DNA of 10,084 bases, taken from NCBI GenBank assembly GCA_020024985.1, contig JAHHSW010000020.1:1-10084 (forward strand), in the 5' to 3' direction. Under the pieces are notes generated by a model, which saw nothing but the letters and a program-made list of their open reading frames with translations, searched no databases and was not told where the DNA came from. Positions 1-10,084 of this stretch are shown here, one piece after another; positions within the stretch are counted from its first letter, which is position 1, and each line of letters starts with the position of its first letter. A program made the translations under genes and the position numbers. The stretch comes from Anaeroplasmataceae bacterium (GTDB lineage Bacteria > Bacillota_I > Bacilli_A > Acholeplasmatales > Anaeroplasmataceae).

Positions 1-311
1 ATATTCAGGGAATTAAAATTCACTCCCTACTAATTCTTAAAAATACTAAAATGGCTTTAGAATATGCAGTAGAAAAATGGCCAATGCTTTCCTTAGAGGA
101 ATATGTTGATATTACAGTTGAACAAATTTGTAGGCTAAAGCCCACAATTATAATTCATAGGCTAGCTGCTGATAGCATAAAGGATAATCTTATTACTCCT
201 CTTTGGACTAGACGTAAGCTTGTTGTTATGAATGAAATAGACAAAAAAATGAGAGCTAATAAGCTATATCAGGGTATTTACTACCATGATAAGCCTATAG
301 ACTCTCATTAA
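1..311 (+). CDS. Radical SAM protein, TIGR01212/YhcC-like, C-terminal fragment
   Basis: The reading frame is open from the left edge (first whole codon at base 3) to TAA at 309-311, so only about the last 102 residues are visible. The ATG at 51 is internal, because the preceding codons continue the family pattern (GIKIHSLLILKNTKMA). Recognisable C-terminal signatures are LSLEEYVD, IHRLAADS and the closing stretch PLWTRRKLVVMNEIDKKM followed by YQGIYY; these are typical of the TIGR01212 radical SAM family (E. coli YhcC). The catalytic CxxxCxxC cluster lies outside the window, so activity cannot be judged. The substrate of this family is not known to me. The gene ends inside the 3' end of the convergent LeuRS-like gene, a 17-bp tail-to-tail overlap. 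The family call rests on remembered C-terminal motifs. Confidence 0.8.
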   Translation, partial: IQGIKIHSLLILKNTKMALEYAVEKWPMLSLEEYVDITVEQICRLKPTIIIHRLAADSIKDNLITPLWTRRKLVVMNEIDKKMRANKLYQGIYYHDKPIDSH

Positions 312-2292
312 TTATTGAATATTTACTATTAAAAAGCTTTTTATAAACCTCATCAGCCAAAAATGGCATAATTGGTGAAATAGCCTTTATAAACAATAGA
401 CACTGCTTTTTAGATATTGACTCCTCAAGGCAAACATTTTTAATGAATTCCTCAAGTACCCTTGTATAGCCTAAAACATCATCCTTATCAAGCTTACTCT
501 TAACCTCACTTATAAGTCTATAGAAATAAAAATCTAGCTTAGGATTTAAAGCATCTGTCGCCGCTAATAATCTTTCCTCTAGGGAATGAACCATTTCATC
601 AATCTCTAAAAGCTTATCCCTATCTATAGCTATAGGAGTATTTAAATCAGCTCCCATTACATAAAATCTAATTGAATCTGAATAATAGCTACTTAAATAT
701 CTATTAAAATCTACTAAATTATTATTAGCTCTTTTTAAATCCCTATGATCAATATCAATAGCCTTAGAAATAGGTACTACTCCCTTAATTAATGGTGGTA
801 GGCTAGCGCCTATTTCTTTTTTTATTATATTAGAAAAAATTATTGGCATTAAAAGCTGACTTATGACCTCATCACTATCAATAACCATTTCTCTAATAGT
901 TCCCCAGGCCTTATATTCATTAGCTGAGTTAGCTGAAAATATAGATTCAGTTTGACTTACATCATCATAAATAATAGAGATAATTGGAGTCATACCATCT
1001 ACATATAGGCTATTCATAGTTCCACTCATAGGCTCACCTAAAACATCAACATTATTATTAAGCTGAGGACGGAACTGAGCTGAAAAATTATATGGTAAAA
1101 ATTGCTTTAAAGGATTTAGCCTTACTCCCCTTTCAATTAGGAATGGGAATAAAGGACCAAAGCCATCTAATGATGATAATAAAATTTCCTTTTTATCATA
1201 GCTTATCTCACTAGTAGCAATCTCAGCATCAATAAAGGCCTCAAATATTTTTTCATCCGCAAGCTTTTCATCAATTCCATCAAGCAGGTCTGAATTAATC
1301 ATTTTATTATTCTTAATTATTGGAATTATTTCAAAGCCATTATTATTAGCTATTTCCATAGCCTCCTTAGAAGCAGCAGGTATTCCTAAATAGCAGGCCT
1401 CATTAAATTTAGTTGAAATAAAAATAGGTATTTTATTAGCTGTTAGTGGGTTAATGGCATATATTCCACTATACGCAAATTCATTTAAGCCATTTTCTAA
1501 ATAATCCATAACCCCATAATACTCATCTATTCCAACATATGAGGTAATATCTATATATTCTGGGTTTAAAAAAATAAAGGAAATTCCTCCCATATAGCTA
1601 GGCCTATCCATTTCTACCATTAGGGTATTATTATTAGATAGGCTTAGGCTTAGATGCATAATTCTTCTTGGCATTAAGGCATTTAAAAGCTCTTGCCTAA
1701 TATTTTCATCACATACTAAATTATTAATATCCTCTAATACATTATCTAATACATCAGCAATTTTTAGGGTAAAGGCCTTTGTTGAAATTAAAGGCAAATC
1801 CCTTGATGGAGTATTAATAGAATCATATATTTTATTATTATCCTTATCAAAATAAACCATTGTATCCTTATAGCCTATATAGCCTCTTTCATAAAGCTCT
1901 ATAAAGGATAGCTGTAGGCTACTTACAAATTCATCTGATCTCATATCTATAAGCTTATAGGGATTAATACCTATACCAAGCTCTAGCATTTGCTTATAAA
2001 ATATTTTTTGAATTTTATCATCAAGAACATTAGAATTTCTTTTACTTTCTATGAAGGATGAATTACCAAGTGAATGAAAGCCTACTGGAAATAAAACATT
2101 TCTATCCCTCATTCTTAAATATCTAGCTAAAACATCCGCATAAACAAGCTTTCTAATTTGAAGAGACTGAAAGCCGTACTGATTCATTTTAGGAAATGGA
2201 GAAAAGACATAGGCCTTCTCCTTTAATATATCATTTTCAATAATAAAGCTTTTATCATTTTGCCACTTCTTATACCACTCAGATCTACCCAT
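295..2292 (-). CDS. Leucyl-tRNA synthetase paralogue with degenerate catalytic and editing motifs
   Basis: The 665-residue protein follows the class I LeuRS layout: N-terminal Rossmann half (27-80), editing-like CP1 insertion (about 210-325), second Rossmann half (about 370-550) and a helical anticodon-binding remnant (about 560-656). Family traces are ADVLARYLRMRDRNVLFPVG near 52-71, YSGIYAINP with KIPIFI at 274-292, SDSIRFYVMGAD at 538-549 and ISPIMPFLADEVY at 638-650. The functional motifs are gone: the HMGH position reads QSLQ (42-45), the KMSKS region reads LKRANNNL (519-526), and the editing VPAHDxRD stretch reads IPAASKEA (304-311). It stops just after the helical domain, shorter than the roughly 800 or more residues of true LeuRS, so the C-terminal tRNA-binding domain is missing. 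The uninterrupted 2-kb frame argues for a maintained pseudoenzyme rather than decay. The start is set by AAGGAGGTG at 2298-2306. It lies downstream of acpP, separated by a terminator. Function unknown; ordinary leucylation is unlikely. Confidence 0.8.
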   Translation of the reverse strand: MGRSEWYKKWQNDKSFIIENDILKEKAYVFSPFPKMNQYGFQSLQIRKLVYADVLARYLRMRDRNVLFPVGFHSLGNSSFIESKRNSNVLDDKIQKIFYKQMLELGIGINPYKLIDMRSDEFVSSLQLSFIELYERGYIGYKDTMVYFDKDNNKIYDSINTPSRDLPLISTKAFTLKIADVLDNVLEDINNLVCDENIRQELLNALMPRRIMHLSLSLSNNNTLMVEMDRPSYMGGISFIFLNPEYIDITSYVGIDEYYGVMDYLENGLNEFAYSGIYAINPLTANKIPIFISTKFNEACYLGIPAASKEAMEIANNNGFEIIPIIKNNKMINSDLLDGIDEKLADEKIFEAFIDAEIATSEISYDKKEILLSSLDGFGPLFPFLIERGVRLNPLKQFLPYNFSAQFRPQLNNNVDVLGEPMSGTMNSLYVDGMTPIISIIYDDVSQTESIFSANSANEYKAWGTIREMVIDSDEVISQLLMPIIFSNIIKKEIGASLPPLIKGVVPISKAIDIDHRDLKRANNNLVDFNRYLSSYYSDSIRFYVMGADLNTPIAIDRDKLLEIDEMVHSLEERLLAATDALNPKLDFYFYRLISEVKSKLDKDDVLGYTRVLEEFIKNVCLEESISKKQCLLFIKAISPIMPFLADEVYKKLFNSKYSIINESL

Positions 2293-2349: not shown

Positions 2350-2580
2350 TTAGATTAATGACTTAATATAGTCTACTAAGTTACCTACTGTTGAGATAGA
2401 ATCGGCATTATCTGCCTCAATAAAAATATTAAAAGCATCCTCTAGATCCATGACGATTTGAACTGCATCAATACTATCAGCACCTAAATCCTCCTTAAGA
2501 TTTGCCTCTAAAGTAACCTTCTCAGGAGCACAATTTAATTCTTCAATTATGATCTCCTTAACTTTATTAAAAATATCCAT
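2350..2580 (-). CDS. acpP: Acyl carrier protein
   Basis: The 76-residue acidic protein is the standard ACP length. The phosphopantetheine site is LGADSID, with Ser36 as the modified residue. The rest of the family pattern is present: LKEDLGADS, VMDLEDAF and the closing STVGNLVDYI. It is a cytoplasmic carrier of acyl chains for fatty-acid or phospholipid synthesis, or for a dedicated pathway. I chose the start at 2580 because AAGGAGG sits eight bases upstream of it; an in-frame ATG seven codons earlier (2601) would place that ribosome binding site inside the coding sequence. A strong promoter lies just upstream and a terminator just downstream, so ACP is mainly a single-gene transcript. No other fatty-acid synthesis gene is visible. 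Its partner gene by position is the unusual LeuRS-like protein. Confidence 0.95.
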   Translation of the reverse strand: MDIFNKVKEIIIEELNCAPEKVTLEANLKEDLGADSIDAVQIVMDLEDAFNIFIEADNADSISTVGNLVDYIKSLI

Positions 2581-2588
2581 TTTGATAT

Positions 2589-2595
2589 CCTCCTT
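2589..2595 (-). promoter_or_regulatory. Ribosome binding site of acpP (decides the start)
   Basis: AAGGAGG on the minus strand with eight bases to the ATG at 2580. It excludes the longer in-frame start at 2601. Confidence 0.85.
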
Positions 2596-2610
2596 AAACA
2601 TTTCATTCCG

Positions 2611-4340: not shown

Positions 4341-4370
4341 AAAAAAGAGCCTAAAAGCTTTTAGACTCTT
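4341..4370 (-). terminator. Intrinsic terminator of the six-gene operon
   Basis: Read leftward, arms AAGAG-T-CTAAA and TTTAG-G-CTCTT pair almost perfectly (one U-G) around a small AGCT loop, followed by a T tract (plus-strand A run 4341-4346). It lies about ten bases after the stop codon of the acetyl-CoA-synthase-like gene and marks the end of the operon that starts at 9682. Confidence 0.87.
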
Positions 4371-4379
4371 CCTAGCTAA

Positions 4380-5123
4380 TTATTTTTTCTTATCATTTAA
4401 AGCCTTATCTCTTTCAGCAATTTGCTTAAAGTGAAGCTCTCTTAGCTCCTCTATATCCTCACAAATTGCCTTTAAGGGACAGGCCTCACAATCTAGAATA
4501 ACATTTTTTAAAACATGATCAAAGTTATCAGTAACCTCATCTACATACTTACTAAGCTTACAAAGCTCAGGGTTAAAATCATAGTCTCCAACAATAAAGA
4601 CTATAATAGCGTTATTAACTCCCTCCAGCTTCTTATAATGATTAATATATAGATTACCAAGTATTTCAAATGATAATCCCTTCTTTATTGCCTTTTTACT
4701 TACTCTAATGTTTTCTCTATTTTCAAAGCTACTAGATAAAATCATATAGCCCTCAGGAATCATTTTATATCTTTGATAATCAAGCTTCTTTACCCCTATA
4801 TAGGCCTTATTTTGATTTTCAATATCATCAATATTTAAAAAGACAATTCTTGAGAAATTAGTGTTTTCCTTTATATCCTTTAAATCCTTACCAATAAGAA
4901 TAATTCTATCCTCATTAACTAGCTCCTTAGTTGAGGTAGGGCAGGTATAAACACTACAAGGCTTAAAGCGGTCTCCAAGCTCAAAGGCAACCTCACGCTG
5001 CATAATAAATTCATTAGTATCTAATAAATTCCAGCTAACGTCCTTATTCACCCTAAGCTCCCTATAGCTAACATCCTTTAAAATGTCCCTTGTCATTCTA
5101 ATTAGTCCATCATATACATTCAT
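4380..5123 (-). CDS. Stand-alone acetyl-CoA synthase middle-domain-like protein with C-terminal CxxCx5C
   Basis: The 247-residue protein resembles the central domain of the bacterial acetyl-CoA synthase (AcsB/CdhC) and nothing else in that enzyme. Traces are FELGDRFKPCSVY (47-59, compare the VEMGG...PAFELV segment), DRIILIGKDLKDIKE (72-86, compare KIEVIGPDIDQIPEG), MIPEGYMIL (121-129) and NIRVSKKAIKKGLSFEILG (138-156, compare NWLRVSKDAVAKGFRFKNYG), followed by a strand ending IVGD. The A-cluster domain and the CO-dehydrogenase-contacting N-terminus are absent. A C-terminal motif Cys212-x2-Cys215-x5-Cys221, followed by EELRELHF, plus Cys56, Cys61 and Cys188 could bind a metal cluster. In acetyl-CoA synthase this middle domain has been linked to CoA binding, so a CoA or partner-docking role is inferred. 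It is the last gene of the operon. No clear ribosome binding site precedes its ATG, which suggests translational coupling to the small gene seven bases upstream. Confidence 0.72.
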   Translation of the reverse strand: MNVYDGLIRMTRDILKDVSYRELRVNKDVSWNLLDTNEFIMQREVAFELGDRFKPCSVYTCPTSTKELVNEDRIILIGKDLKDIKENTNFSRIVFLNIDDIENQNKAYIGVKKLDYQRYKMIPEGYMILSSSFENRENIRVSKKAIKKGLSFEILGNLYINHYKKLEGVNNAIIVFIVGDYDFNPELCKLSKYVDEVTDNFDHVLKNVILDCEACPLKAICEDIEELRELHFKQIAERDKALNDKKK

Positions 5124-5130
5124 AGGCTAA

Positions 5131-5298
5131 TTAAATCTTTCCCTCTTTCTTTTTCTTATCATGATACCTAATAAGAATATCATATACCTTCTCAAGCATC
5201 TTATTATCACCATTAGTTAAATAAAGAATCCAGCTTAATAAATATAAAGCTATCGGAAGCGATACTAGTACAATTAATAATATCCAATACCAAGCCAT
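5131..5298 (-). CDS. Small single-pass membrane protein (55 residues)
   Basis: The frame from ATG at 5298 to TAA at 5131 encodes 55 residues. A hydrophobic segment of about 24 residues (3-26: WYWILLIVLVSLPIALYLLS then WILYL) is followed by a polar tail ending in DKKKKEGKI. The positive tail predicts the N-terminus outside and the C-terminus in the cytoplasm. A strong ribosome binding site, AAGGAGGAG (5303-5311), overlaps the end of the activator gene, and the next gene starts seven bases after the stop, so it sits tightly within the operon. I do not recognise a family. It may anchor operon proteins at the membrane, or be a small accessory subunit; that is inference from position and topology only. 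Confidence 0.75.
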   Translation of the reverse strand: MAWYWILLIVLVSLPIALYLLSWILYLTNGDNKMLEKVYDILIRYHDKKKKEGKI

Positions 5299-5309
5299 AC
5301 TACTCCTCC

Positions 5310-6101
5310 TTATTCATCTAAGCCCTTTTGACGAGCATATTCTGCTGCACCTAGAGCACCCATTAATTGTGGGTCAGTCTTTAAATCGATCACCTTAATA
5401 TGTAATACCTTTTCAATAGCCTTCTTTAAGCCAATATTCTTAGCACAGCCTCCAGTTAGAGTGATTGAATCACGAGCTCCAGCCTTCTTAGCCATAATGA
5501 AGCATCTCTTAGCTACTGATTGCTGAATACCTGCCGCAATCTCATTCTTTGGCTTACCCTCACCTACTAAAGTGATTACCTCAGACTCAGCAAATACTGT
5601 ACATTGAGAGGTAATAGGAATTACATTCTCTGCAGTTAATGAAAGCTCTGCAAAGCCGTCTAGAGTAGTTTCAAAGGCATTAGCCATTGCCTCAAAGAAT
5701 CTACCAGTACCAGCAGCACACTTATCGTTCATAGCGAATGATAATACTGTACCATCCTTATCGATAGAAATACCCTTTACGTCCTGTCCACCGATATCAA
5801 TAATTGCCTTAACATTAGGATCAGTTACATGTACACCCATAGCGTGGCAGGAAATCTCTGAAATATTCTCATCTGCCTGTGGTACCTTGTTACGTCCGTA
5901 ACCTGTACCTACTAAATAGGTTAAATCCTCTATGCTATTTAAGCCTGCCTTCTTAACAGTCTCAGCTAAGGCTTCCTTAGCTGAAACCTCAGCATTAATC
6001 TTACTTCTAATTGTAGTTGTTGCTACAATCTTGCCATTTTCATCTATAATGACACACTTTGTGTATGTTGAACCAACATCACAGCCACCAAACATTTTCA
6101 T
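5310..6101 (-). CDS. 2-hydroxyacyl-CoA dehydratase activator / component A ATPase (HgdC/BcrAD/BadFG family)
   Basis: The 263-residue protein is the usual length for the archerase activators. ASKHA-fold nucleotide motifs are present: CDVGSTYTK (7-15), DIGGQDVKG (102-110) and LTGGCAKN (215-222). The bridging [4Fe-4S] cluster of the homodimer is held by one pair of cysteines per subunit, seen here as NDKCAAGTGRF (Cys128) and TSQCTVFAESEV (Cys167). It uses ATP hydrolysis to pass one low-potential electron to its partner reductase, very likely the two subunits encoded just upstream. I chose the ATG at 6101 (MKMFGGCDVG) because GGAGG lies eight bases before it; the longest open frame (from 6146) would overlap the preceding gene and add a non-homologous leader. 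A single copy suggests a homodimer, as in HgdC, rather than the two distinct ATPase subunits of benzoyl-CoA reductase. Confidence 0.93.
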   Translation of the reverse strand: MKMFGGCDVGSTYTKCVIIDENGKIVATTTIRSKINAEVSAKEALAETVKKAGLNSIEDLTYLVGTGYGRNKVPQADENISEISCHAMGVHVTDPNVKAIIDIGGQDVKGISIDKDGTVLSFAMNDKCAAGTGRFFEAMANAFETTLDGFAELSLTAENVIPITSQCTVFAESEVITLVGEGKPKNEIAAGIQQSVAKRCFIMAKKAGARDSITLTGGCAKNIGLKKAIEKVLHIKVIDLKTDPQLMGALGAAEYARQKGLDE

Positions 6102-6109
6102 CTCTATAT

Positions 6110-6114
6110 CCTCC
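6110..6114 (-). promoter_or_regulatory. Ribosome binding site of the activator gene (decides the start)
   Basis: GGAGG on the minus strand in the 16-base gap after the preceding stop codon, eight bases before the ATG at 6101. It rejects the longer in-frame start at 6146. Confidence 0.8.
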
Positions 6115-6117
6115 AAA

Positions 6118-7686
6118 TTACCAAGCCTTTTGATCCTCATAATCAACTAGTGTTGGATCAAGTGGCTCCTCTCTAAATACATTTACCATGTACTTATTTA
6201 AAGCCTCTCTCATTTCACGACGAGAAACAGTACGTGAATCCATTAAATCATGAGGAATCCAAATCATATGAATACCACGCTCACGAGCCTGGTCCTCATA
6301 TAAGCCATGTAAGCCACCAACATTCTTACAAGAAACGTGGTCAAACATAATAACTATATTTACATTGAATTTCTCACACATTCTCCAGCATTCATCAAGT
6401 GAATTTTGGTATCCTCCATTAGTATGACTACGCATCATCATCTTTTCATATAATAATGCTAAATCAACCATAGCCTGTTCCTTATCACCAATGTGAATAA
6501 AGTGATGGCTTAGCATACATTCCATATCTACTACGGTCTTAATACCCCAGCAGTGCTGAGCCCAGTAGGTAAAGTTTGTATAATAATGTGCAGGACATGC
6601 CCAAACAATAGCTCTATGACGATATGGCTTATTATCATTAGCCTTATCCTCCATATAGCCCTTACTCATCATCTTATCAATCTTCTTATCAACCTTTAGC
6701 ATATATGGGTCAAGACAGCCTGCCCCCATAAACTCATATTCTCTTTGATAAGCTAGGGCCCCATTACATACCTGTGGATAAGCTGTAGCATTTACGTCCC
6801 ACTTATTAAGCATAAATTGACAGGTTTCATTATATTCCTTACTCTTCCTCCAGAAGGCATCCCAGTCCCACTTAACATTATAATTATCCTCAATAAACTT
6901 AATACAATTCTTTAAATTCTTTACAGCATAGTCCTGAACCTCAGGCTCTAAGAATCTTTGTGGCGGAGTAACCTGGAACATTGGTAAATCCTTCATTACC
7001 CTGGCCATAAAGGCAATTTGTCCGATTGAGCCATCACAAGGCATTGATGAGGTGATAAAGGTCTTACCAACAAGTGGATAATCATTAGCTACCGCAACAC
7101 CACATTCAGTTTCTGGGAATGGGCAAATATCTGGGGCTAAGCCAAACTCCTCAACCACATCAATATAATATGGATTAGCCATTTGATCAATTTCAGATGG
7201 CATACCAACAGCTAGCATACAAATATCAATCCACTTAAGGGTTGGGAAGCCCGCCATAATAAACTTTGGAATCATTTCATCAAACATTACAGTCTTATTA
7301 CGTAGTTTCTCAGCACGCTTACTCCTAGGACGTAGATTCTTATCTCTTAAAAGCATAAGCTGAACTGTATCAATAGATGAATGCACCATTGAATAGAACT
7401 GCTCATGAGTATATCTTAAATCCTTACCACGTAAGCCAATAGTATGCTTATCAATTGTATAAACAGCAGTTAAATAAGATACCAGCCAACGATATCTTAG
7501 CATCGCCTTTAGCATTAAAATTGGATGGGTACCAAGACGTAGCGCCATATAGCTTAAAAGCTTAAGCCAACGCCAGTGATCATAAACTGTATCCCTAAAT
7601 CCCTTCCACTCTCTATGCTTGAAGGTCTTCATTTCCTTATCGAAATAGCTACCTATTCCCTTTTTTGTCTTAGGATTATATGCCAT
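6118..7686 (-). CDS. 2-hydroxyacyl-CoA dehydratase/benzoyl-CoA reductase-type subunit, long (HgdA-like position)
   Basis: This 522-residue protein belongs to the FldBC/HgdAB/BcrBC superfamily. Supporting segments are FITSSMPCDGSIGQ (210-223), VVDMECMLSHHF (385-396), VNIVIMFDHVSCKNVGGL (442-459) and the C-terminal HDLMDSRTVSRREMREALNK (479-498), which matches the usual D-x-R-x-S-x2-Q-x-R-T-R-x-E region. Likely iron-sulfur ligands are among Cys188, Cys195, Cys217, Cys390 and Cys453; the exact set cannot be fixed by eye. It is longer than typical subunits (about 380-480). The first 110 or so residues form an extra basic and hydrophobic region, including LKLLSYMALRLGTHPILMLK (41-60). The gene starts one base after the preceding stop codon, with GGGGAGGT upstream. 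The partner is the 406-residue subunit; electrons should come from the downstream activator. Substrate unknown; dehydration, ring reduction or another low-potential reduction are all possible. Confidence 0.85.
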   Translation of the reverse strand: MAYNPKTKKGIGSYFDKEMKTFKHREWKGFRDTVYDHWRWLKLLSYMALRLGTHPILMLKAMLRYRWLVSYLTAVYTIDKHTIGLRGKDLRYTHEQFYSMVHSSIDTVQLMLLRDKNLRPRSKRAEKLRNKTVMFDEMIPKFIMAGFPTLKWIDICMLAVGMPSEIDQMANPYYIDVVEEFGLAPDICPFPETECGVAVANDYPLVGKTFITSSMPCDGSIGQIAFMARVMKDLPMFQVTPPQRFLEPEVQDYAVKNLKNCIKFIEDNYNVKWDWDAFWRKSKEYNETCQFMLNKWDVNATAYPQVCNGALAYQREYEFMGAGCLDPYMLKVDKKIDKMMSKGYMEDKANDNKPYRHRAIVWACPAHYYTNFTYWAQHCWGIKTVVDMECMLSHHFIHIGDKEQAMVDLALLYEKMMMRSHTNGGYQNSLDECWRMCEKFNVNIVIMFDHVSCKNVGGLHGLYEDQARERGIHMIWIPHDLMDSRTVSRREMREALNKYMVNVFREEPLDPTLVDYEDQKAW

Positions 7687-7687
7687 T

Positions 7688-8908
7688 TTACTTACCTCCC
7701 CTAGCCTTTTTCTCTCTATTAGCCTTAATCTTCTTTATCTCAAGGCTCTCAACAAAGGCTTGAACACGTGTTCTTAGCTGACCAGATGATGACTTAGCGC
7801 TATATGGTCTATCTAGTGATAATACATTAACACCATACTCCTCTGGCATAATATGAGCGGCAAGAGTTCTTTCATAGCTCCAATAGGTACAGAACTTCAT
7901 CTGCTCATAAATAGCTCCATCCGCATGATAATAATCAACAAGCTCCTTAATATGCTCACGTCTACCATTAATCTTATGAATAGCACAGTGACGTGGACAC
8001 TCAGTATCATGTAAATTCTTTCTAATAACCTGAGTTAAGGCATCCTCATCATCATTAAGCTCTATAACAGATCTACCTGGAATTGAGCCGTAGCAGAAAC
8101 GATCTCCTACTACTAAGGCACCACTATCCTCAATTAGCTCAATCATGGCAGAATCATCAATCTCACTACCAACTACAACTACTCTAGCTCTAGAGCCAGG
8201 ATGCTTATCAGGCTCACGAGTCTTAAGCTCCTCTAGGGTCTCACGTAGGTATGGTAATATTTCATCCTTAGGACAAACATAGGTACATAAAACAATTTTA
8301 TGGAATTCACTACCAGTAATTACTGGGTTCTCGCTTCTTCTCATTTCACCCATTTCAGTAATTATAGAGCACATTTCATTAAATGATCTTACAGCCTCTC
8401 TAATAGCCTTATCAGAGATATCCACTCCATATTTTTCATGTAGTGGCTCTAAAACCTTACGAGTTAGCTGCTCACGAGCATGAATTACACAGTCCTCATC
8501 ATCTGAATATGGCATATCTAAATATGTTCTAAAGTAATTCTTATTTTCAGTATTATAAAGCTTAAGAATTTCAATATTCTCCATACATCTATTCATTGGC
8601 TCACATACATCTACTCCAAGTAGGGCATCTAAGAAATTATAGTTACCCTCAAAGGCTCTTTCAAGTAAGGCTCTTGAATACTCACAAGCGCTTTGAGCCA
8701 TATAATAGGTAGCAATTTCTGTACCTGCAGTATGTGGAGCTCTTAGCCTAACTGAAAAGCAATTTCCTAGGTTCATTAAAACCTCAGGAACATGGAAGCA
8801 GGTATAGCCTAGGCAGACCCTACCATTATCCTTAGCCTTCTTAACTAGCTCATTATGAGCATCCTCAAGTAGGCTTTCAAAATATATCATATGCTTTAAA
8901 TCCTTCAT
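7688..8908 (-). CDS. 2-hydroxyacyl-CoA dehydratase/benzoyl-CoA reductase-type subunit, short (HgdB/BcrC-like)
   Basis: The 406-residue protein has the standard subunit length and clearer family signatures than its partner. They are GYTCFHVPEVLMNLG (34-48, Cys37), SACEYSRALLERA (73-85, Cys75), VCEPMNRCMENI (101-112), RVVVVGSEIDD (242-252), GDRFCYGSIPGRS (268-280, Cys272), GAIYEQMKFC (331-340, Cys340) and the closing LSLDRPYSAKSSSGQLRTRV (363-382). Cys75, Cys272 and Cys340 are the most plausible cluster ligands by position; whether the cluster is a single [4Fe-4S] or a double-cubane [8Fe-9S] cannot be told from sequence alone. Extra cysteines occur at 102, 108, 208, 212, 304 and 308. The C-terminal tail is strongly basic (KKIKANREKKARGGK). 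It starts three bases after the ATPase gene stops, which indicates co-translation. Catalysis would be radical chemistry driven by the activator; the substrate is not determined. Confidence 0.88.
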   Translation of the reverse strand: MKDLKHMIYFESLLEDAHNELVKKAKDNGRVCLGYTCFHVPEVLMNLGNCFSVRLRAPHTAGTEIATYYMAQSACEYSRALLERAFEGNYNFLDALLGVDVCEPMNRCMENIEILKLYNTENKNYFRTYLDMPYSDDEDCVIHAREQLTRKVLEPLHEKYGVDISDKAIREAVRSFNEMCSIITEMGEMRRSENPVITGSEFHKIVLCTYVCPKDEILPYLRETLEELKTREPDKHPGSRARVVVVGSEIDDSAMIELIEDSGALVVGDRFCYGSIPGRSVIELNDDEDALTQVIRKNLHDTECPRHCAIHKINGRREHIKELVDYYHADGAIYEQMKFCTYWSYERTLAAHIMPEEYGVNVLSLDRPYSAKSSSGQLRTRVQAFVESLEIKKIKANREKKARGGK

Positions 8909-8911
8909 ATG

Positions 8912-9682
8912 CTACTCTCCCTCATTAATTACACCAAAATTTACAAGTATTTCAGATAGCTTAACAACGGCCTTACTGTCCATAGGAAGCTCCATAAAGC
9001 TTCTAGCATCAGCATCATACTCCATAACATTCATATCACTAGGAATAACTCCTAAAACTGGAATATTATCAAGCTTAACATTTCTTAATAGCCTCTCATC
9101 CTCAATACGATTAAATATTAAGCCTACCTTATCATAGTTAACTACTCTATCAGCCACCTCATCAATAGTCTTAATAACCTCAATACCCTTACGGCTAGCA
9201 TCACTTACTAAAAGTAAATGAGTAACCTTCTCCATAACCCTACGGTTAATCTGCTCAATACCAGCCTCACCATCGATTACTACATAATCAAATTGGCTAC
9301 TAACCATTTCAATTACATTCTTTAAATATGAGTTAATTCTACAGTAGCAGCCCTCTGATTCTGGTCTACCTATTGCCAAAAAGGCAAACCCATCATTCTC
9401 TACTATAGCCTCAAAAATCTTATAGCGTGACTCACTAACAAGCTCTAAAGCACTCTTAGTATCTCCACCCTCTACCTTAGAAATAATATCATTTCTAATA
9501 TCATCTAGAGTCATATGAGGCCTAACTCCTAGGGCTGTAGCTAGTCCTACAGCTGGATCTGCGTCAATTGCAAGAATTCTCTTATCAGGGAATTTCTTAG
9601 TAAGAAGCTTAACAATTAATGCAGAAAGACTTGTTTTACCTACTCCACCCTTACCAGTAAGGGCAATAATTGTTGGTTGCAT
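8912..9682 (-). CDS. CooC/AcsF-type MinD-family ATPase with CxC motif
   Basis: The 256-residue protein is a SIMIBI P-loop ATPase with a deviant Walker A, GKGGVGKT (10-17), including the signature lysine at 11. LAIDADPAVGLATALG (37-52) gives the switch I region and VVIDGEAGIEQINRR (134-148) the Walker B/switch II region. FLAIGRPESEGCYC (101-114) carries the Cys112-x-Cys114 pair that binds nickel in CooC dimers. In known systems CooC inserts nickel into CO dehydrogenase, and AcsF does so for acetyl-CoA synthase. Here the gene leads an operon of dehydratase-type proteins plus an acetyl-CoA-synthase-like domain, so its client is probably one of these; the metal is not proven. The start has a very strong ribosome binding site, AAGGAGGAG (9686-9694), and an 80-base leader from the predicted promoter. 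A soluble cytoplasmic protein is expected. Confidence 0.9.
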   Translation of the reverse strand: MQPTIIALTGKGGVGKTSLSALIVKLLTKKFPDKRILAIDADPAVGLATALGVRPHMTLDDIRNDIISKVEGGDTKSALELVSESRYKIFEAIVENDGFAFLAIGRPESEGCYCRINSYLKNVIEMVSSQFDYVVIDGEAGIEQINRRVMEKVTHLLLVSDASRKGIEVIKTIDEVADRVVNYDKVGLIFNRIEDERLLRNVKLDNIPVLGVIPSDMNVMEYDADARSFMELPMDSKAVVKLSEILVNFGVINEGE

Positions 9683-9766: not shown

Positions 9767-9796
9767 GACATTGTACAATGTATACATTTTAATGTC
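9767..9796. promoter_or_regulatory. Overlapping palindromes, candidate TetR-family operator
   Basis: Four half-sites alternate: ACATT (9768-9772), AATGT (9777-9781), ACATT (9784-9788) and AATGT (9791-9795). They form a perfect 14-bp palindrome, ACATTGTACAATGT; an overlapping perfect 12-bp palindrome, AATGTATACATT; and ACATT-TT-AATGT. The outer flanks are GACATT and AATGTC. The array spans the -10, the spacer and the edge of the -35 of the leftward promoter, and the neighbouring divergent gene encodes a TetR-family regulator. Operator function is inferred. Confidence 0.72.
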
Positions 9797-9798
9797 AA
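9770..9798 (-). promoter_or_regulatory. Main promoter of the six-gene operon
   Basis: A perfect -35 TTGACA (9793-9798) and TACAAT -10 (9770-9775), separated by 17 bp, read leftward. Transcription should start near 9763, leaving a leader of about 80 bases. Both elements are covered by the palindromes described separately, so repression by a dimeric regulator is expected. Confidence 0.85.
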
Positions 9799-9912: not shown

Positions 9913-10084
9913 GTGAAGGAGCTTAATCAACGTCAGCTACAGGCTATAAAAACAAAATCTAAAATAACAAAGGCAGCTATGACCCTCTTAAAATCACAGC
10001 CTTATGACAATATAAAAGTAAGTGATATTTGTAAGCTAGCTGGTATTTCTATTGGAGGCTTCTATCATTATTATGATTCAAAGG
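9913..10084 (+). CDS. TetR-family transcriptional regulator, N-terminal fragment
   Basis: Only the first 57 residues are inside the window. They contain the TetR-type DNA-binding domain: helix 1 (about KTKSKITKAAMTLLKS), then the helix-turn-helix IKVSDICKLAGISIGGFYHY (38-57) with YDSK following, the classic V-x-D-I-x2-x-A-G-(I/V)-S-x-G-x-F-Y-x-Y-F/Y-x-S-K pattern. The start codon is GTG at 9913, preceded by GGAG (9900-9903) at nine bases. The ligand-binding domain lies outside, so the inducer cannot be guessed; acyl-CoA ligands are common in this family near acyl-CoA genes. It diverges from the six-gene operon with a 230-bp shared intergenic region containing the palindrome array, so it is the likely local regulator of that operon. 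Confidence 0.9.
   Translation, partial: MKELNQRQLQAIKTKSKITKAAMTLLKSQPYDNIKVSDICKLAGISIGGFYHYYDSK

Follow-up and report, generated by a model that had tools for sequence, protein, structure and literature searches.

The closest described relatives of the locus analysed here belong to the benzoyl-CoA reductase/2-hydroxyacyl-CoA dehydratase superfamily, in which the bzd-type benzoyl-CoA reductase (BzdNO and BzdPQ) combines an ATP-driven activase with a heterodimer of a six-cysteine [8Fe-9S] subunit and a three-cysteine [4Fe-4S] subunit. Only a handful of enzymes are described as having double-cubane clusters, and little is understood of the chemistry of these clusters (PMC11971306). Here, we examine a stretch of 10,084 nucleotides (nt; hereafter the window) from an Anaeroplasmataceae bacterium (assembly GCA_020024985.1, contig JAHHSW010000020.1), in which six minus-strand open reading frames (ORFs) appear to place such a heterodimer and its activase in one operon with a CooC-type ATPase, a small membrane protein and a protein resembling part of acetyl-CoA synthase (ACS). 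On balance, we favour reading this operon as a self-contained anaerobic metalloenzyme system, an ATP-driven double-cubane reductase with an ACS-like partner that CooC would metallate.

The window differs from the bzd system in having one activase gene and, in addition, cooC, ACS-like and membrane-protein genes, and inspection by eye of 15 listed loci revealed no aromatic-degradation gene. It encodes two subunits, whereas the double-cubane cluster protein (DCCP) is a homodimer (PMC11971306). The nearest published parallel that we found is the putative isoprene reductase (isr) of Acetobacterium wieringae, whose gene is cotranscribed with nickel-insertion genes (PMC10134865, available in part). 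Both operons combine a reductase with nickel-insertion genes and no known nickel enzyme needing them, but isr is a flavoprotein reductase with HypA/HypB, and the available portion of that paper describes no CooC-ACS pair. In the literature searched, which covered subscription journals thinly and consisted mostly of titles and abstract openings, the gene set was not recognised as described. An earlier note on this DNA, made from the sequence alone, had named six genes and their order, and both are recovered in the ORF listing (9682-4380, minus strand; aa, amino acids):

8912..9682, minus strand: cooC, a CooC/AcsF-type metal-insertion ATPase of 256 aa (GKGGVGKT P-loop, C112-x-C114)
7688..8908, minus strand: subC, a BzdN/DCCP-like subunit of 406 aa with six double-cubane cysteines
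6118..7686, minus strand: subB, a BzdO/HadB-like subunit of 522 aa with cluster cysteines C188, C217 and C453
5310..6101, minus strand: act, an ATP-dependent activase (BcrAD_BadFG) with two conserved cysteines
5131..5298, minus strand: tm55, a single-helix membrane protein of 55 aa by hydropathy, likely a tether
4380..5123, minus strand: the ACS-like gene (acsA2-like), 247 aa, with an ACS middle domain and the motif C212-x2-C215-x5-C221

A Pfam/NCBIfam scan recognised a CooC-like P-loop ATPase, two HGD-D (PF06050) subunits, a BcrAD_BadFG activase and a CdhC domain, matching the families previously proposed for the ATPase, the two HgdAB/BcrBC-type subunits and the activator; by these matches, every operon protein with a recognised domain falls in a known superfamily. 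The near-zero gene spacing held as well, with intergenic gaps of 1-16 nt across all six genes given an activase start at ATG 6101. This is most likely the true start, as it sits behind GGAGG, while the listed TTG start (6146) overlaps the preceding gene. Because of this tight spacing and the conserved gene order described below, the six genes probably share a single transcript.

Cysteines C37, C75, C102, C272, C304 and C340 of subC each occur in 73/73 aligned rows, window included, and reproduce the double-cubane ligand set of the bzd-type N subunit; the six ligand cysteines are also found in DCCP. By its sequence, subC carries the full ligand set for a predicted [8Fe-9S] double cubane. The 2-hydroxyacyl-CoA dehydratase HadC, in contrast, has a reduced set, with P and A at the positions of C37 and C272, which the subC family keeps. 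Among PDB sequences, subC matches BzdN best (E 9.8e-20), and its top NCBIfam score is with the DCCP family (NF040772), far under the cut-off (133 vs 350 bits); the bzd benzoyl-CoA reductase family cut-off is missed too (78.9 vs 453.8 bits). At the distal cluster, subC shares R53 with BzdN but has I, D and W in place of R267, R290 and H330. In a tree restricted to the 406-aa subunit family, with one BzdN, the subC family lies on a branch of 2.8 changes/site with support 100/100 and outside the characterised proteins compared (BzdN, DCCP, HadC, MbdN); for this subunit, the position inside a characterised dehydratase clade that would have refuted the earlier note did not turn up. The same note had spoken of a dehydratase/reductase module; the six cysteines and the tree position uphold a double-cubane reductase type and not a dehydratase type. 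The subC family has two further cysteines of its own, C180 and C212 (73/73 rows each), at positions where other homologs have an Arg and another residue. An extra metal site there was considered and dropped, since both are Ser in locus L086, which retains cooC and the ACS-like gene, and other residues occupy the positions in 15 spirochaete rows.

For subB, C188 and C217 are present in 80/80 rows and C453 in 79/80, and the three catalytic [4Fe-4S] cysteines of the bzd-type O subunit have counterparts, so that its sequence provides three cysteines for a putative [4Fe-4S] active site. Counted by hand on printed alignments, C188 aligns with BzdO Cys95, C453 with BzdO Cys380 inside a stretch of no significance, and C217 with a cysteine of MbdO and DCCP, falling on BzdO Cys129, one residue off ligand Cys128. 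Residues 1-47 are covered by 0/10 good structural matches and 48-85 by DCCP alone. A transmembrane N-terminus was rejected, with hydropathy maxima of just 0.37-1.42 in 31 sequences, and a plasmid search with subB gave no match. The activase has two conserved cysteines 39 residues apart, in the usual two-cysteine ATPase layout. Double-cubane ligands, [4Fe-4S] cysteines and activase layout together support the earlier proposal of an ATP-driven low-potential reductase. The tm55 product, which has 0 family matches over cut-off, contains one strongly hydrophobic stretch (2.6 on the 19-aa Kyte-Doolittle scale) and is likely a tether. It is short and diverged, and phmmer recovers it in 37/52 full loci; a small ORF with a hydrophobic 19-residue stretch lies between act and the next gene in 62/66 loci, a count without a chance control.

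The cooC product has both the deviant Walker A and the dimer-interface C-x-C of CooC/AcsF: GKGGVGKT and C112-x-C114 align with, and share the numbering of, those of Carboxydothermus hydrogenoformans CooC1, and C112/C114 are kept in 64/64 aligned ORFs. The ACS-like protein reaches the Pfam cut-off for the CdhC domain (29.5 vs 24 bits) and has the ACS middle-domain fold by fold match, so the middle-domain resemblance seen by the earlier note stands at that level, while NCBIfam ACS cut-offs are far from reached. Like ACS (AcsB/CdhC), it has Arg140, common to ACS rows, and its A-cluster stretch contains a cysteine motif, whose three cysteines occur in 67/67 aligned rows. Unlike ACS, it is only 247 aa long, without the CO dehydrogenase-binding domain. 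Of the four cubane cysteines and CGC nickel site of ACS, it shows three cysteines and no CGC: the protein ends 26 residues past the motif, whereas CGC lies 89 residues after the motif start in 7/7 ACS rows. A search of viral contigs with the ACS-like alignment found none. The claim of metal-insertion-type accessory parts is supported. cooC and the ACS-like gene remain paired where other operon genes are rearranged.

Conservation of the locus was followed by scanning genome contigs with a subB alignment of 31 sequences (window plus 30 relatives). At least 583 stretches encode a subB relative, of which the best 80 loci were kept for locus counts. Of these, 52 leave room on either side of the operon: all 52 have subC and subB, 50 have act, 50 the ACS-like gene and 49 cooC. 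Rarity as neighbours, which would have refuted the earlier note, is thus not observed, as the genes adjoin each other in 49 to 52 of 52 loci. The commonest order, cooC-subC-subB-act-ACS-like, is found in 54/80 loci, and subC-subB-act-cooC-ACS-like in 4/80. At least one of the five genes is lacking in 22/80 loci, but only three of those with room on both sides lack any.

The link extends to whole genomes. In an even draw of 291 genomes from the class to which Clostridium algidicarnis belongs, subB (at E <= 1e-60, a limit set to exclude other PF06050 proteins) was found in five and the ACS-like protein (E <= 1e-3) in six; five genomes have both, on the same contigs, and the sixth ACS-like match (G313, E 3.4e-4) lies inside a true ACS. 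When 250 genomes were drawn from the family that includes Butyrivibrio sp. XPD2006 (L073 = G032; ACS-like E <= 1e-10), both proteins were found to occur in the identical 21 genomes, on the same contig in 18. With G235 common to both draws, 25 distinct genomes carry both proteins; they share descent, and the counts are therefore not independent events. Furthermore, the ACS-like protein is present in 33/33 genomes reached via 34 of the 80 loci, including four (G002, G008, G010, G013) whose retrieved locus lacked the gene or was cut. Such strict co-occurrence already contradicts accidental neighbours. An ordinary (R)-2-hydroxyacyl-CoA dehydratase beside chance neighbours, as the automatic names of several relatives and the PF06050 superfamily match would have it, is barely credible in view of this co-occurrence, the six double-cubane cysteines and the tree position.

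A second phylum carries related regions. Among 198 genomes of Spirochaetota, the ACS-like protein was found in 10, nine of them diverged, and in ten regions from these nine genomes (L117-L126) an ACS-like copy always adjoins cooC; L117 has a second copy apart from it. These regions encode subC/subB-type pairs, usually with two neighbouring activases, and some have a second subC-subB-act set. They keep the six subC cysteines (15/15), the three subB cysteines (15/15), the CooC C-x-C (10/10) and, in the ACS-like copies, the three cysteines and Arg140 (11/11), while subC C50, C180 and C212 and ACS-like H231 are not retained. Arg140 is Lys in the clostridial L003.

That the cooC/ACS-like module accompanies double-cubane subunits in two phyla would also suit a nickel-free role, in which CooC and the ACS-like protein are iron-sulfur (Fe-S) assembly factors building [8Fe-9S] from [4Fe-4S] units. 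The MinD/NUBPL/NifH fold of CooC includes cluster carriers, and a [4Fe-4S] cluster could be bound by the three cysteines that are invariant in the ACS-like protein. We nevertheless judge this rather unlikely: the C. algidicarnis genome (L104) encodes a separate DCCP-type protein (519 bits, over the cut-off of 350) alongside the operon, whose ACS-like gene is the sole one found in that genome; to our knowledge neither DCCP nor BzdN needs such a module; and strongly His-rich proteins near some copies suit nickel better. Since the DCCP-type protein and the operon coexist in L104, they represent two distinct double-cubane families. The invariant cysteines, and a gene position after act with at most the tm gene between (54/80 loci), would also suit an electron-transfer or docking subunit with a plain [4Fe-4S] cluster, supplied by CooC, between ferredoxin, activase and reductase. 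However, the activases known to us draw electrons straight from ferredoxin or flavodoxin, and the Arg140 shared with ACS and kept in the spirochaetes suggests more than a wire, which makes such a role distinctly improbable.

A one-carbon function, also envisaged by the earlier note, fares poorly. Unlike the usual setting of CooC/AcsF, operon genomes mostly show no CO dehydrogenase, which exceeds the cut-off in 4/33 (genomes may be incomplete). The corrinoid Fe-S protein gives strong matches (115-266 bits) in 5/37 operon genomes (G005, G006, G009, G024, G217); it passes the Pfam cut-off in 11/37, the extra six being partial matches of 24.1-32.6 bits in ORFs of 778-883 aa. FTHFS is found in 34/37, a figure without a comparison set. 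These counts leave a general one-carbon or acetyl-CoA-pathway role unsupported, and replacement of CO dehydrogenase/ACS as a general role was rejected on the corrinoid count. A Lachnospiraceae acetogen does show CO dehydrogenase activity and carboxyl-labelled acetate without CO dehydrogenase/ACS genes (PMC7000372), and the operon with its ACS-type parts occurs in Lachnospiraceae. Even so, an alternative CO2/CO-converting (Wood-Ljungdahl) enzyme for hosts lacking CO dehydrogenase/ACS is very unlikely, as acetyl-CoA synthesis requires the corrinoid protein that most operon genomes do not strongly match. A one-carbon enzyme is disfavoured by the corrinoid count, and a plain dehydratase by the subC cysteines and tree position.

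In the metallated-reductase system that we favour, the activase would, judging from characterised relatives, spend ATP to drive ferredoxin electrons into the subC double cubane, which would store at least two electrons and pass them to the substrate-bound cluster of subB. Such a route would make the enzyme a low-potential reductase, not a dehydratase. tm55 would anchor the enzyme at the membrane, and CooC may serve the ACS-like protein in the way that AcsF serves ACS, by inserting a metal, of which nickel is the most likely; the metallated protein would then serve as a third working subunit or as a carrier completing the reductase. Nickel appears likeliest by analogy, since CooC, ACS and His-rich CooJ-like proteins all belong to nickel pathways. 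In a bolder form, the operon would encode the first nickel-linked member of its superfamily, a membrane-tethered ATP-driven double-cubane reductase with a miniature CooC-loaded A-cluster protein from ACS, performing a multi-electron reduction known in no enzyme; this we regard as doubtful, if conceivable.

Several observations weigh against the metallated partner. The ACS-like protein has no CGC motif for a second nickel and is short of one or more A-cluster cysteines, the ACS counterparts of its first two cysteines vary with alignment mode, and its cysteine loop is low-confidence in the structure model. Profile-profile comparison of its family with two slices of ACS spans 138 columns (46% probability, E 2e-4), is weaker than the fold match and ends before the cysteines. 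Fe-S clusters and zinc are further possible cargoes of CooC-family ATPases, and no CooC is known to us for the double cubanes of BzdN and DCCP. Three of the 52 full loci are incomplete: L002 has no cooC, act or ACS-like gene, L017 no cooC or ACS-like gene and L048 no cooC or act, although L002 and L017 come from genomes with an ACS-like gene at another place; paralogous subC/subB pairs have no cooC or ACS-like gene of their own (L088, L060, L073). The small His-rich family is absent from the window, and only 6/15 members have at least 10 His in 30 residues.

By profile, this small family, with its conserved helical end, occurs near the operon in 15/80 loci (L042, L045, L049, L050, L054, L060, L065, L069-L075, L078), and another member was recognised by eye alone in L089 (6835-7266). 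Five members upstream of subC have a short His run only and two are without the tail entirely; two scanned proteins gave no NCBIfam match. The paralogous subC/subB pairs (L060, L066, L069, L070, L072, L073, L075, L076, L078, L087, L071, L002) are often divergent from the operon in Lachnospiraceae; the pair in L088 (8003-10951) lies elsewhere with its own tm55-like gene. All six double-cubane cysteines are retained in 11 aligned paralog subC rows, and these pairs may share the operon's activase.

Flavoenzymes are recurrent neighbours, enoate-reductase-like in Clostridia and GMC- or CrtI-like in spirochaetes. An old-yellow-enzyme-type flavoprotein is found in 19/80 loci, in 16 of which it shares the operon's strand and lies no more than 1 kb away, and three scanned examples score best with BaiCD and bilirubin reductase, under those cut-offs. 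A GMC-type flavoprotein was confirmed in the scanned L120 and L124 and seen by eye in other spirochaete regions; L120 also carries a CrtI-like flavoprotein, and a ~490-aa protein recurs by eye in these regions, with no Pfam match in the scanned L119 and L124. These flavoenzymes and the membrane protein faintly hint at an unsaturated, perhaps hydrophobic substrate or product. PlsA (plasmalogen synthase) and Ger, lipid ester reductases of the superfamily, are fused multidomain activase-dehydratases, unlike the separate genes of the window, and were considered solely as a precedent for lipid substrates. Another candidate, the enzyme with which Butyrivibrio reduces conjugated linoleic acid, reportedly a membrane-bound, iron-containing protein of ~60 kDa, was dropped; nothing relevant to it came up in the literature searched.

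Around the operon, the window contains three further features:

4342..4373, minus strand: a terminator-like stem-loop and T-run after the last gene (such sites not above shuffles)
9770..9798, minus strand: the best promoter-like site before cooC (11/12; such sites not above shuffles)
9913..10083, plus strand: the first part of a divergently oriented gene for a regulator (TetR-type by eye), which leaves the window

The one promoter and single terminator of the earlier note thus exist as candidate sites, but neither class is commoner than in shuffled sequence (3 vs 2.9 terminator-like and 17 vs 23.5 promoter-like sites). The palindrome ACATTGTACAATGT overlaps the promoter-like site; it was rejected as operator evidence, the best palindrome being equalled in 239/1000 Markov-resampled sequences. 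Because similar regulators stand beside the operon in several relatives, in L055 (NCBIfam matches below cut-offs) and, by eye, in L007, L008, L010 and L011, the TetR-type gene is a candidate controller, and its ligand would be a clue to the substrate. Scans for tRNA and Rfam families found nothing in the window at the thresholds used. Farther along, a 665-aa leucyl-tRNA-synthetase-like protein (295-2292, minus strand; 101 bits vs the leuS cut-off of 548) adjoins an acyl carrier protein gene (2350-2601, minus strand), and is possibly a paralog that has taken on a different function, for instance charging a carrier protein.

Taken together, the operon likely represents a double-cubane reductase clade that, in one genome after another, goes with a portion of ACS and its metal loader; the hosts are anaerobes of gut, rumen and environment, most of which show no CO dehydrogenase. 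This calls into question the automatic label '2-hydroxyacyl-CoA dehydratase' on several relatives. Should nickel prove to be the metal, anaerobic metallobiochemistry would see two of its separate branches joined, and CooC and the ACS fold would gain a new, testable role.

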